The notes under the pieces were generated by a model. It saw only the letters and a program-made list of their open reading frames with translations. It searched no databases and had not been told where the DNA came from. This document shows, one piece after another, positions 39,622 to 54,267 of a stretch of 64,000 nucleotides of DNA. Within the stretch, counting starts at the first letter, position 1; every line of letters begins with the position of its first letter. The translations under genes and the position numbers were made by a program. This stretch comes from Limimaricola cinnabarinus LL-001 (GTDB taxonomy: Bacteria > Pseudomonadota > Alphaproteobacteria > Rhodobacterales > Rhodobacteraceae), in contig NZ_BATB01000006.1 in the NCBI RefSeq assembly GCF_000466965.1, positions 1 through 64,000 on the forward strand. The letters run 5' to 3'.

Positions 39622-40167
39622 ATGAAACGGGTGATGATCATCGGGCAGCCCGGTTCGGGCAAATCATGGCTGGCGCGGCGGATGGGCGAGATCACGCATC
39701 TGCCGGTCGTGCATATCGATGCCATCCATTGGGCGCCCGGCTGGGTCGAGCGACCGCGCGCAGAAAAGGACCGGCTGTGCGCCGGAGTTCATGCGCGGCC
39801 CGAATGGATCTTCGAAGGCGGACATTCATCGACATGGGAAGCACGGCTGGATCGTGCCGATACGGTGATCTGGCTCGATCTGCCGCTGGGTCTGCGTCTG
39901 CGGCGGGTGCTGTGGCGCAGCCTGAGCAACTGGGGACGCAGCCGTCCGGAGCTGCCGCCGGGATGCCCGGAACGCTTCAATGGCGAGTTCGTGCGATACA
40001 TCTGGCGCACGCGCCGGTCGCAGCGGTCGAAGCTGTGCTGGTTTTACGGGCAGGTTCCCGAGGACAAGGATCGCCACCATTTGCGAAGTCGGCGCGAGGT
40101 CGCGGACTATCTGGGCGGGCTCTCCGAAGCGGTGGCAAGCGGGAATCTCGGTCTGCCGCATCGCTGA
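39622..40167 (+). CDS. P-loop nucleoside kinase-like protein (topology-modulation/FlaR type)
   Basis: A 181-residue P-loop NTPase with Walker A GQPGSGKSWLARRMGE at the N-terminus, VVHIDAIHWAPGW, EGGHSSTWEARLDRADTVIWLDLP and a Cys/Arg-rich lid region. Relatives are labelled adenylate kinase or DNA topology modulation protein, but no member's substrate is well established. The start ATG at 39622 gives the usual MKRVMIIG. A terminator follows. It has no obvious functional link to infB upstream. Confidence 0.83.
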   Translation: MKRVMIIGQPGSGKSWLARRMGEITHLPVVHIDAIHWAPGWVERPRAEKDRLCAGVHARPEWIFEGGHSSTWEARLDRADTVIWLDLPLGLRLRRVLWRSLSNWGRSRPELPPGCPERFNGEFVRYIWRTRRSQRSKLCWFYGQVPEDKDRHHLRSRREVADYLGGLSEAVASGNLGLPHR

Positions 40168-40182
40168 GAGCTGGGAAAATTG

Positions 40183-40211
40183 AAAAGGGACGGCTTTGGG
40201 CCGTCCCTTTC
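40183..40211 (+). terminator. Terminator after P-loop kinase gene
   Basis: AAAGGGACGG and CCGTCCCTTT are ten-base complementary arms around CTTTGGG. It sits about 16 bases after the stop and ends with a short T-run. The A-rich 5' arm would act for the minus strand too. Confidence 0.82.
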
Positions 40212-40250: not shown

Positions 40251-40394
40251 TCAGGCGGCTTGGGGACCACTGTTGGCGGGACGCCCCTCATAGAGACGTT
40301 CACCGACACGGACCAGCATCCGGCCGTTCGCGAGCTGTTTGACAAGAAGGCCCTGCACCGAGATGCAGCTACCGATCAGGATGGTTTGCAGCAT
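40251..40394 (-). CDS. 47-residue protein of unknown function
   Basis: A short frame not related to any family I recognise. The product begins MLQTILIGSC, continues SVQGLLVKQLANGRMLVRVGERLYEGRPA and ends GPQAA. The alternation of hydrophobic and charged residues suggests a small beta-rich fold. ATG at 40394 is preceded by GGAG at eight bases. The upstream region to about 40500 is AT-rich compared with the rest of the window and carries a seven-base inverted repeat. It lies between two convergent units' ends and is separate from mutT. Coding status is moderately supported by codon use and the ribosome binding site only. Confidence 0.5.
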   Translation of the reverse strand: MLQTILIGSCISVQGLLVKQLANGRMLVRVGERLYEGRPANSGPQAA

Positions 40395-40396
40395 AA

Positions 40397-40425
40397 TGGA
40401 CTCCATATAATCAATGGTGAGTCCA
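40397..40425. repeat. Inverted repeat upstream of the 47-residue gene
   Basis: TGGACTC and GAGTCCA are perfect seven-base arms 15 bases apart, just upstream of the small minus-strand gene and overlapping its ribosome binding site. It may be a protein-binding operator or an RNA hairpin that masks the start. Confidence 0.55.
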
Positions 40426-40536
40426 CTATAGGCGGTGATTTATGAACAACCTACTGTAGCTGACAAATATTTGACGACATATGGAACCAATTGCCTTGTT
40501 CTGACGCAGCGTTTGCACGTGCCCGGTTCGGGAACC

Positions 40537-40935
40537 TCACAGCCAGTCGCGCAGCACGGGAATCAACGGCAGATCGGCTGGCGGCATCGGATAATCGCGC
40601 AGGCGGTTCGGCCGCACCCATTCCAGCGCCTGATTCTCGCGCCCATGTGGCTGGCCCTGCCAGCGGCGGCAGGCAAAGAGCGGCATCAGCAAATGGAAGC
40701 TCTCATAGGCATGGCTGGCGAAGGTGAGCGGCGCGAGGCAGCTCTCCTGTGTGTCGATGCCCAGTTCCTCGTGCAACTCTCGGATCAGCGCGGCCTCGGG
40801 GCTCTCGCCCGGCTCGACCTTGCCACCCGGAAACTCCCACAGCCCGGCCATCGACTTGCCCTCGGGGCGCTGCGCGAGCAGCACCCTGCCATCGGCGTCG
40901 ATCAACGCCACCGCCGAGACGAGGACGATCTTCAC
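40537..40935 (-). CDS. mutT: 8-oxo-dGTP diphosphatase MutT
   Basis: Hydrolyses 8-oxo-dGTP to prevent oxidised guanine from entering DNA. The 132-residue product has GGKVEPGESPEAALIRELHEELGI, a complete NUDIX box, preceded by AGLWEFPGGK as in MutT proper, and ends with WVRPNRLRDYPMPPADLPLI, the typical MutT tail. Its ATG overlaps the argJ stop by four bases, so both are co-translated. argJ-mutT pairing is common in alphaproteobacteria. Confidence 0.94.
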   Translation of the reverse strand: MKIVLVSAVALIDADGRVLLAQRPEGKSMAGLWEFPGGKVEPGESPEAALIRELHEELGIDTQESCLAPLTFASHAYESFHLLMPLFACRRWQGQPHGRENQALEWVRPNRLRDYPMPPADLPLIPVLRDWL

Positions 40936-42149
40936 GAGCGGTAGTCGGCATTGATGTCGATGTAGCGATGCGTGAGATCGCAGGTCCAGGCCACGGCCTC
41001 GCCGGAGCCGAGCCCGAGATCGACGTCGATGACGATCTCCTGACCCTTCATGTAGGCGGCGGCCTTCTCTTCGTCATAGGCGGGGCTGACCCAGCCGTTC
41101 TGGGCCACCAGGATCTCGCCGAAGTGGATCGAGAGCCGGTCGCGGTCGGCCTCGGCACCGGATTTGCCCACGGCCATGACGACGCGGCCCCAGTTCGGGT
41201 CCTCGCCCGCGATCGCGGTTTTCACCAGCGGCGAATTGGCGGTGGCCATGGCGACCTTGCGGGCGTCGTCGTCCGAAGCCGCGCCGGTGACGCGGATCTC
41301 CACGAACTTGGTCGCGCCCTCGCCGTCGCGCACCACCTGATGCGCGAGATCGAGCATCACCCGCTCCAGCCCGGCCGCGAAATCGGCGCTGCCGGTGACA
41401 TTGACGCCTGAGGCCCCGGTCGCGGCCATCAGCAGCGTGTCCGAGGTCGAGGTGTCGCTGTCGACGGTGATGCAGTTGAAGGTTCGGTCTGTGATCTCGC
41501 GCAGAAGGTCCTGCAGCTTGGGCTGGTCGATCAATGCATCGGTGAAGATATAGACCAGCATCGTCGCCATGTCGGGCGCGATCATGCCCGAGCCCTTGGC
41601 GATGCCGGCGATCTTCACCGGCTTGCCGTCGATGGAGACGGTTTCGGTCGACCCCTTGGGGAAGGTGTCGGTGGTCATGATGGCGCGCGCGGCACCCTCG
41701 ATGCCCGCAGGCTCCAGCGCGGCGTTCAGCTCTCCCAGCTTGGCAACGATGCGCTCATGCGGCAGCGGCTCACCGATCACGCCGGTCGAGGAGGTGAAGA
41801 CGCGCGCGGCGTCGATGCCGGTGGCCTGCGCCACGGCGGCGCAGATTTCGGCCACCGAGCGTTCGCCCGCCTGACCGGTAAAGGCGTTGGAATTGCCGGA
41901 ATTGACGAGAAAGGCGGCGCGGGAGGTGTCCGCGCCGATCTTGGCCTCGCAGTCGCGGACCGGGGCAGAGCGGGTGGAGGAGCGCGTGAACACCCCCGCC
42001 ACCGCCGAGCCCGGCTCCAGTTCGGCGAGCATCACGTCGGTCCGGTTCGCGTATCGCACCCCGGCCGCGACCGAGGCGAAACGCACGCCCGCGATCTCGG
42101 GCAGGGCGGGAAAGGCGGCGGGCGCCAGCGGCGAGACCGGACCGGCCAT
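40932..42149 (-). CDS. argJ: Glutamate N-acetyltransferase/amino-acid N-acetyltransferase ArgJ
   Basis: Bifunctional arginine-synthesis enzyme that moves acetyl from N-acetylornithine to glutamate and can also use acetyl-CoA. The 405-residue precursor should self-cleave into two subunits: the cleavage site is in GSGMIAPDMATML, between Ala195 and the nucleophilic Thr196. FLVNSGNSNAFTG and TTDTFPK are other family marks. It begins two bases after the stop of the PPIase gene and overlaps mutT by ATGA. Confidence 0.97.
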   Translation of the reverse strand: MAGPVSPLAPAAFPALPEIAGVRFASVAAGVRYANRTDVMLAELEPGSAVAGVFTRSSTRSAPVRDCEAKIGADTSRAAFLVNSGNSNAFTGQAGERSVAEICAAVAQATGIDAARVFTSSTGVIGEPLPHERIVAKLGELNAALEPAGIEGAARAIMTTDTFPKGSTETVSIDGKPVKIAGIAKGSGMIAPDMATMLVYIFTDALIDQPKLQDLLREITDRTFNCITVDSDTSTSDTLLMAATGASGVNVTGSADFAAGLERVMLDLAHQVVRDGEGATKFVEIRVTGAASDDDARKVAMATANSPLVKTAIAGEDPNWGRVVMAVGKSGAEADRDRLSIHFGEILVAQNGWVSPAYDEEKAAAYMKGQEIVIDVDLGLGSGEAVAWTCDLTHRYIDINADYRS

Positions 42150-53449: not shown

Positions 53450-54267
53450 CGCCCGGCGCTCCAACTCGCGGAGGCGCGCTTGCGAGTGAAGAACTCGGCC
53501 ATCATGCCGACAGCCACCAGAATCAGCCCGATCCAGAGCGGATAGAGAGCCGAGGTGAAATGCGGCGTGTAGTTGAGGAATATGTCGCCCCGCGCCTGAT
53601 CGATCGCGTGAAACAGCGGGTTCCAGTCGAACACCGAAAGCATGTAGCCCGGAAGCGTGTTGGCCACGAACATCTTGCCGCTCGCGATCATGTTGACGCG
53701 CGAATAGACCGAGACGCCGATGGTGGTGAACTCGGGCAGCCATGGCTTGATTGCCATGAAGATCATGCCGACGCCGACACCCGAGAACCACGCCACCAGC
53801 AGCATCCCCATCGCGCCCACCGGGTCCTCGATCACCACCGGCGTCACCAGCACGTGGTAGAAGAACAGGATCACCAGAAGCGACAACAGCTGGATGTAGA
53901 GCGAGCCCAGCGCCGCCGCCGAAATGGTCACGGCGGTGTTGAGCGGCGCGTGCTTCATCATCGAGGAGGCGGGGCCGTCGGCCTTGACCACCGCGCCCAC
54001 GGCCTTGGTGTGGATCAGAAACAGGAAGATGCCCGACATCAGATAAAGCAGGAAGTCGCCCCGAAGCCCGGCGCCGCGCGCGCCGATCAGCGTGAACATC
54101 AGATAGAAGGCGAGCACGAAGATCACCGTCTGGACGATGTTCATCAACAGCCCCGCAAGCGCATTGCGGTGATCCTTGCGGATCTCGCGCACGGTGGAGT
54201 GATAGATCAGTTCGGCCAATCCGGCTGCGCGTCGGCCCGTGCCGCGGGGGCGCTCGCCTTGGAACAT
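53446..54267 (-). CDS. ABC-2 type permease, capsule polysaccharide export-like
   Basis: A 273-residue permease with about six membrane segments: NIVQTVIFVLAFYLMFTLI, a Gly-rich FLLYLMSGIFLFLI, then SAAALGSLYIQLLSLLVILFFY, an acidic loop, GMLLVAWFSGVGVGMIFMAI and a C-terminal ALYPLWIGLILVAVGMMAEFF. This matches KpsM-type or teichoic-acid-type polysaccharide exporters. No ATPase partner (KpsT-like) is adjacent; it stands on the minus strand between alkB and cysQ. The cluster downstream makes a surface-polysaccharide role plausible. Confidence 0.85.
   Translation of the reverse strand: MFQGERPRGTGRRAAGLAELIYHSTVREIRKDHRNALAGLLMNIVQTVIFVLAFYLMFTLIGARGAGLRGDFLLYLMSGIFLFLIHTKAVGAVVKADGPASSMMKHAPLNTAVTISAAALGSLYIQLLSLLVILFFYHVLVTPVVIEDPVGAMGMLLVAWFSGVGVGMIFMAIKPWLPEFTTIGVSVYSRVNMIASGKMFVANTLPGYMLSVFDWNPLFHAIDQARGDIFLNYTPHFTSALYPLWIGLILVAVGMMAEFFTRKRASASWSAGR

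Follow-up and report, generated by a model that had tools for sequence, protein, structure and literature searches.

An undescribed small-protein family of the Rhodobacteraceae with a predicted small-barrel fold and a relative in front of CysP-like sulfate-binding proteins

In the window, the 64,000-nucleotide stretch of Limimaricola cinnabarinus LL-001 DNA analyzed here, the minus-strand reading frame at 40251-40394 is almost certainly a real gene, and at the level of sequence it is a member of an undescribed small-protein family of the Rhodobacteraceae. The overall explanation that we favor, and hold to be on balance probable, is a Rhodobacteraceae small-protein gene that lies after mutT, is mostly convergent to infB, and encodes a small cytosolic binding module. 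About two thirds of the sampled genera in this large and ecologically important family carry the gene, mostly in one place, and it is absent from the curated libraries searched. We regard it as a small-protein family that is new but whose predicted fold is of a familiar style and whose second use is out of the ordinary. Three features define the frame and its start:

40251 to 40394 (stop codon included), minus strand: the small gene, 47 aa, from reading frame, homologs, start alignment, and dN/dS
40401 to 40404, minus strand: Shine-Dalgarno GGAG, six bases before the ATG and partly inside one repeat arm
40404 to 40406, minus strand: alternative upstream ATG (51-aa reading) from the ORF list, which relatives do not support as the start

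The frame runs from an ATG at 40394 to a TGA at 40251-40253 and translates as MLQTILIGSCISVQGLLVKQLANGRMLVRVGERLYEGRPANSGPQAA. The ORF list gives a 51-aa product from the ATG at 40406, four codons upstream; the start is placed at the Met of 40394 because this is where the relatives align. The 47-residue minus-strand frame with a good ribosome-binding site, described in the earlier note from the letters of the sequence, is thus recovered, with GGAG at 40401-40404 ahead of the ATG at 40394. GGAG, AGGAG, GGAGG, or GGGGA also occurs in 75 of 80 relatives, within the 15 bases ending 3 before the start, and the remaining five have GGGG or GGGA at that position. The observation made in the earlier note is confirmed as a whole, and its interpretation is partly supported.

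Conservation of the protein among relatives, on which the claim of a real gene had been made to depend, was found widely in the family. The small protein is present in all eight Limimaricola genomes of the genus sample. Of 61 relatives examined, 24 have it, every one of them among the 37 of the window's family and none among the 24 others. A profile search identified the gene in 265 of 394 Rhodobacteraceae genomes, drawn from 393 genera (243 of 347 when genomes of good quality are counted), the family-wide profile having 22 rows. It is also present in 103 of 149 genomes of the order sample; the matches in the class sample (3 of 289 genomes) and, with a broader profile, in the phylum sample (19 of 349) all lie within the window's family. 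Since it was not found at the search threshold in 129 of the 394 family genomes, the gene is not essential across the family. Named relatives include L. variabilis, L. hongkongensis, and L. litoreus within the genus and many beyond it, from Cereibacter to Sulfitobacter (GTDB), and lengths in the family range from 43 to 53 aa in a sample of 81.

The frame also bears the marks of selection on a protein. Among the eight genus sequences the median dN/dS is 0.088, and their 28 pairs together differ 99 times at codon position 1, 49 times at position 2, and 392 times at position 3; between the window and L. variabilis, 17 third-position changes leave zero amino-acid changes over 40 codons. Stops in frame are found in none of 85 loci picked by protein match (the window, 80 named loci, and four further loci of the genus), and the other five frames carry stops in 33 to 74 of the 85. 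The 80 named loci are the best 80 of 300 relatives (303 stretches), chosen by the pattern [LIM]GSC[VI]SVQG, so the conservation of Cys10 among them follows from that selection; in looser members Tyr or His replaces it. That the frame is instead a shadow or chance frame from which no product is made has a negligible probability. Its short length, the missing family-library match of the window protein, and the fact that all 13 seemingly free plasmid copies, four of which were read, lack a listed gene in a gene table that is incomplete speak for such a frame, but we consider the reading refuted by conservation over hundreds of genomes across the family together with the coding constraint seen in dN/dS and codon positions, and the confident predicted fold also stands against it.

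The surroundings of the gene are equally regular, and the following neighbors serve to describe them:

40537 to 40935, minus strand: mutT-like Nudix gene, the conserved upstream neighbor (locus comparison)
40932 to 42149, minus strand: argJ, a conserved neighbor (locus comparison)
39622 to 40167, plus strand: kinase-like gene resembling PRK08118 with a score below cut-off, convergent and placed between small gene and infB (2 of 80 loci)
40186 to 40208, no strand given: strong G+C hairpin in the gap that separates the small gene from its convergent plus-strand neighbor (folding; a simple terminator scan made no call)

In 79 of 80 related loci mutT lies directly upstream of the small gene, and in 79 argJ and a peptidyl-prolyl isomerase gene adjoin it; secA is near in 78, and the end of infB converges on it in 74, some of the exceptions being cut by a contig end and others not. 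The gap from mutT to the small gene spans 80-274 bases (median 131, n = 79), and the distance from the small gene to the infB end has a median of 93 bases and reaches 2853 (n = 74). Among 25 genomes taken from those listed without the small gene in the family and order samples, mutT was found in 24. Just 16-211 nt separate mutT from infB in 11 of the 24 and leave no small-gene-like frame, so that the absence is clean at least in these 11; for the remaining 13, the stretch examined showed no infB. Of the 80 related loci, two, both from Limimaricola, have the kinase-like gene of the window, and L. litoreus (L120) lacks it; this gene therefore represents a local insertion or loss. An 87-base stretch containing the 40186-40208 hairpin folds at z -3.25, and this hairpin is probably a terminator shared by the small gene and the convergent gene. 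The proposal that the small gene falls between two terminated units holds on one side: the plus-strand neighbor ends before a strong hairpin (itself not called by the terminator scan), but mutT is on the same strand as the small gene and the scan placed no terminator between them.

Upstream of the start the GC content of the DNA drops strongly, and three features lie in or overlap this region:

40395 to 40504, minus strand: AT-rich upstream region, probably with the gene's own promoter (GC content; no sigma-70 consensus match)
40425 to 40430, minus strand: -10-like TATAGT, picked by eye (a consensus scan gave no match)
40397 to 40425, no strand given: inverted repeat TGGACTC-15-GAGTCCA (pattern search; arms not conserved in the genus)

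That an AT-rich stretch stands out here from its surroundings is borne out by a GC content of 39% at 40395-40504 versus 67.7% for the window. Among 110-base windows (step 5 bases, this one included), 0.016% show so low a GC content. Low GC upstream is also general in the family, with a mean of 43% versus 61% over 80 loci, which favors a promoter region and disfavors an acquired segment. A sigma-70 consensus scan gave no match upstream of the small gene, and the -10-like hexamer reads TATAAT in L. litoreus. The suggestion of a recently acquired AT-rich segment could draw on the strong local drop in GC, on related copies carried by plasmids, and on the third or so of family genomes that have no match, but it is extremely improbable in view of the mutT order shared by nearly all loci and of the family-wide composition of the upstream region, and we do not uphold it. 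When upstream sequences were searched for motifs in the 70 of 80 loci kept after removal of similar ones, AACAAT (16 loci versus 2.8 expected), TTGTGA (13 versus 2.8), and TGTGTC (9 versus 0.9) were over-represented, relatedness perhaps accounting for part of each excess, and a clear operator was not found in these 70 loci. Loci L074, L091, and L102, among several Sulfitobacter-like ones, have AACAAT...ATTGTT inverted repeats upstream, in which AACAAT precedes the start by about 65 bases.

The inverted repeat reported at the start region exists, with arms TGGACTC at 40397-40403 and GAGTCCA at 40419-40425 separated by a spacer of 15, and it overlaps the Shine-Dalgarno sequence. Both arms are complete in only two of the eight genus genomes, those of the window and of L. 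litoreus; another genome (G005) has shortened arms, and the other five genus loci lack the left arm. One view is that the repeat is a DNA operator, bound by a dedicated repressor or by the small protein itself. One arm touches the -10-like hexamer, the exact pattern has a single match in the window where 100 shuffles lead one to expect none, and the genome contains no further copy of the 29-bp site. However, the repeat is not conserved in the genus, and, whatever their sequence, perfect 7-bp inverted repeats with a spacer of 3-20 are common (225 starts in the window, about 3.5 per kb), and the chance that the gene has its own operator here, as had been proposed, is very slim; a single genomic occurrence and full arms in two genomes do not sustain that proposal.

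A slim chance attaches to a second view, in which the functional unit is an RNA, either a coding sRNA or a hairpin formed by the repeat that masks the Shine-Dalgarno sequence and so controls translation. Three of the eight genus genomes have a ribosome site less open than that of shuffled sequences, namely the window (27% versus 44%), L. hongkongensis (17% versus 50%, via another hairpin), and G005 (23% versus 42%), and coding sRNAs such as Pos19 are known in a relative (PMC5036791). Against this, openness is unchanged in two genomes (L. variabilis and L. litoreus) and greater in three, and masking is not a trait of the family, the mean z over 77 other loci being -0.01. The 91-base fold is not unusual (z -1.37), third codon positions vary freely, Rfam gave no match here at the gathering threshold and two weak ones below it (E 0.08 and 0.54), and Pos19 is a different gene, at the cxp/fadB locus (PMC5036791). 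We take the repeat to be incidental or, failing that, a peculiarity of a few species, and the protein-coding gene remains our reading of the locus. Elsewhere in the window, at 53554-53702 on the plus strand, Rfam matches the Ruegeria cis2 sRNA (RF02645) with 69.9 bits versus a gathering score of 50.

The fold of the small protein was modeled from an alignment of 65 of 81 sequences, also used for the library scans, from which 16 near-duplicates or sequences with non-ATG starts had been omitted. AlphaFold predicts a four-stranded all-beta monomer with a mean pLDDT of 89.2 and strands at residues 2-7, 11-20, 26-30, and 33-39. Foldseek against the PDB returned no solved structure at E <= 0.001, the best rows, Caulobacter Hfq (E 0.71, TMq 0.55) and biotin protein ligase (E 0.7), not being significant. 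The VIA structural comparison, a second look in which folds ranked low by Foldseek could not appear, gave no Z above 4.1 and placed IscB first, followed by the biotin ligase C-terminal domain, Tudor, the HIV integrase C-terminal domain, Lsm, and some others; structures of other kinds, such as IscB and a cytochrome c, are also among the structural rows. Because no fold match is significant and the rows are mixed, "SH3/Sm-like" describes shape only. A small-barrel fold is likely on the strength of the model, which we read as that of a generic small barrel and not as membership of the Hfq, biotin ligase, Tudor, or other listed families. All 81 proteins carry a net charge of +1 to +7, with a median pI of 9.6, and the small protein has no signal or membrane stretch.

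The description of the gene as unrecognized agrees with the curated family libraries searched, Pfam and NCBIfam, which do not hold it: the window protein has no row, the family has no trusted match, and the best E values among the 65 members scanned (of 81) are 0.0042 (DUF5983_N, in three members) and 0.016. A sequence search of the PDB gave no Hfq row, and its sole row (E 0.045) is a different protein. PADLOC returned no row for the three proteins tested, and a defence role was rejected on that ground. A phage origin was likewise rejected, no relative emerging from tblastn in phage records, from a pattern scan of viral contigs (eight stretches, none a relative), or from PHROGs (weak rows at most, best E 0.043). 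A relation to IF-1, with its IF-1/S1-type OB fold, had been suggested by eye and was also rejected, the single IF-1 of the same genome giving an hhalign probability of 0.4 over 10 columns against the profile.

Evidence for a second use of the same sequence came from a weak second match in one genome, a sulfate-binding protein whose 40 N-terminal residues belong to the small-protein family and are followed by a normal-looking signal peptide. This arrangement of module and CysP is also found on plasmids of Ponticoccus, Thioclava, and Paracoccus. When a module profile of seven rows (six of CysP type and one free plasmid copy) was compared with the small-protein profile by hhalign, 42 columns aligned with a probability of 99.2% and an E value of 2.5e-19, and the small protein is thereby shown to be homologous to the N-terminal module of CysP-like sulfate-binding proteins over the whole length of the module. 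Only a minority of the family shares the link, that CysP being present in 33 of 295 genomes. Of 30 CysP loci examined (30 of 39 places, one each from 30 of the 33 genomes), 16 have the module in front of the signal peptide; six rows of the module profile used were themselves drawn from loci of this kind or from plasmids. The module begins with Met in 14 of the 16, the start of L249 in the CysP set being degenerate. Fourteen of the 16 have no Met between module and mature part, so that their module is translated unless the protein starts at a GTG or TTG; the remaining two have a Met within the hydrophobic stretch. Basic character is weaker in the CysP modules, with a net charge of -3 to +3 over the matched part in the 16 loci, and the Cys of most stand-alone members is replaced there by His, Arg, Asn, Gly, Thr, Tyr, or Ala. 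In all 11 module-bearing loci examined for neighbors cysT follows, and an Rrf2 gene was found in six of them; Pfam confirms Rrf2 and a solute-binding protein, one each. The window's genome has no such CysP at threshold and no second copy of the module, so a link to sulfur may not apply there.

Several further copies extend this picture of the module. CysP-like proteins occur at L147-L150, L157-L159, L190-L192, L194, and L242-L271, many with the module before the signal peptide; L248 seemingly holds a remnant of the module only, and the CysP frame of L148 is interrupted. A further CysP of genome G168, beyond the 30 examined, also carries the module. At L193 (genome G108, start 2683), a free 41-aa copy is closer to the CysP type than to the mutT type, and no CysP was found in the stretch. 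Fifteen plasmid records have a match, two of CysP type, with a CysP gene listed under one match and none under the other, and 13 with seemingly free copies; three of the four read in Paracoccus and Sulfitobacter (L063, L064, L065, L066) lie near VanZ-family or polysaccharide genes.

The arrangement in CysP raises a further explanation, in which the sequence is a leader-type module with a co-translational role in the expression or export of what it heads, and the stand-alone copy is derived or trans-acting. The 16 CysP loci, with their Met starts and the lack of a later Met in 14, support it, but the stand-alone gene heads nothing: no co-directional gene lies directly downstream, the next gene in the window being convergent, as infB is in 74 of 80 loci. 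We regard this explanation as quite unlikely, and retain the small cytosolic binding module as the favored one. Under the favored explanation, the small gene would be transcribed from its own AT-rich promoter region and translated from its good ribosome site, and the product, having no signal or membrane stretch, would stay in the cytosol and act as a small SH3/Sm-like binding module, perhaps oligomeric, whose basic surface might hold a nucleic acid or protein partner. For the CysP relatives we would expect the module to be synthesized first and to remain at the cytosolic face of the membrane as the remainder of the protein crosses it, behavior more in keeping with binding or tethering than with enzymatic activity. 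The chances that the small protein is a binding module are about even. A nucleic acid is a doubtful candidate for the partner, for which the basic character speaks weakly, and a role in sulfur supply is unlikely; the less basic CysP relatives speak weakly for such a role or for one at the start of translation or export. The nucleic-acid lead and the sulfur/export lead point in different directions. A decidedly improbable proposal would make the protein a dual-use cytosolic mini-barrel, acting in trans as a free 47-aa protein and, as a module in front of the CysP signal peptide, being left on the cytosolic face after cleavage, so that CysP export would be signaled to, or controlled by, a cytosolic partner that the free protein shares; if this were true, intracellular control would be coupled to transport-protein export in an undescribed way. 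The 47-aa product is small enough for quick structural work, and the odd placement of a module before the CysP signal peptide invites a test of what a pre-signal-peptide module does.

Several known proteins and RNAs resemble the small protein in part. SH3/Sm-type small barrels (Hfq, the biotin ligase C-terminal domain, Tudor) are alike in size and all-beta make-up and supply many of the best structural rows, but no score is significant (best E 0.71, Z at most 4.1). The viral structure BFVD A0A516LJT4 (57 aa) is alike in predicted structure and sequence (39% identity over 41 columns, TM 0.77, E 0.0039), but it was not recovered by sequence in phage records, where tblastn for a similar sequence gave nothing or one phage at E 6, and it was not found in the literature searched. 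Titles and abstracts on Rhodobacterales small proteins, mutT/infB small proteins, CysP extensions, and small barrels yielded none on the small gene, and a search with peptide strings from the small protein found no publication. DUF1127, which has members in Rhodobacter, likewise covers small proteins, from alphaproteobacteria and others; it differs in that Pfam scans of the small protein gave no DUF1127 row and the prediction here is all-beta. RSP_0557, a DUF1127 gene, was rejected as the same gene. Pos19 of the related Rhodobacter sphaeroides is likewise a small coding gene, with about 50 codons, and its over-expression reduces sulfur-gene mRNAs, cysP among them; it differs in regulating as an RNA and in lying between cxp and fadB under an RpoE promoter, and its authors did not find it outside R. 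sphaeroides (PMC5036791). Because of this locus, as opposed to mutT/infB, Pos19 was rejected as the same gene. The N-terminal extension of the Rhodobacteraceae CysP is, in contrast, a sequence relative of the small protein over the whole module, and differs from it in being fused ahead of a signal peptide, in lacking the Cys, and in being less basic.
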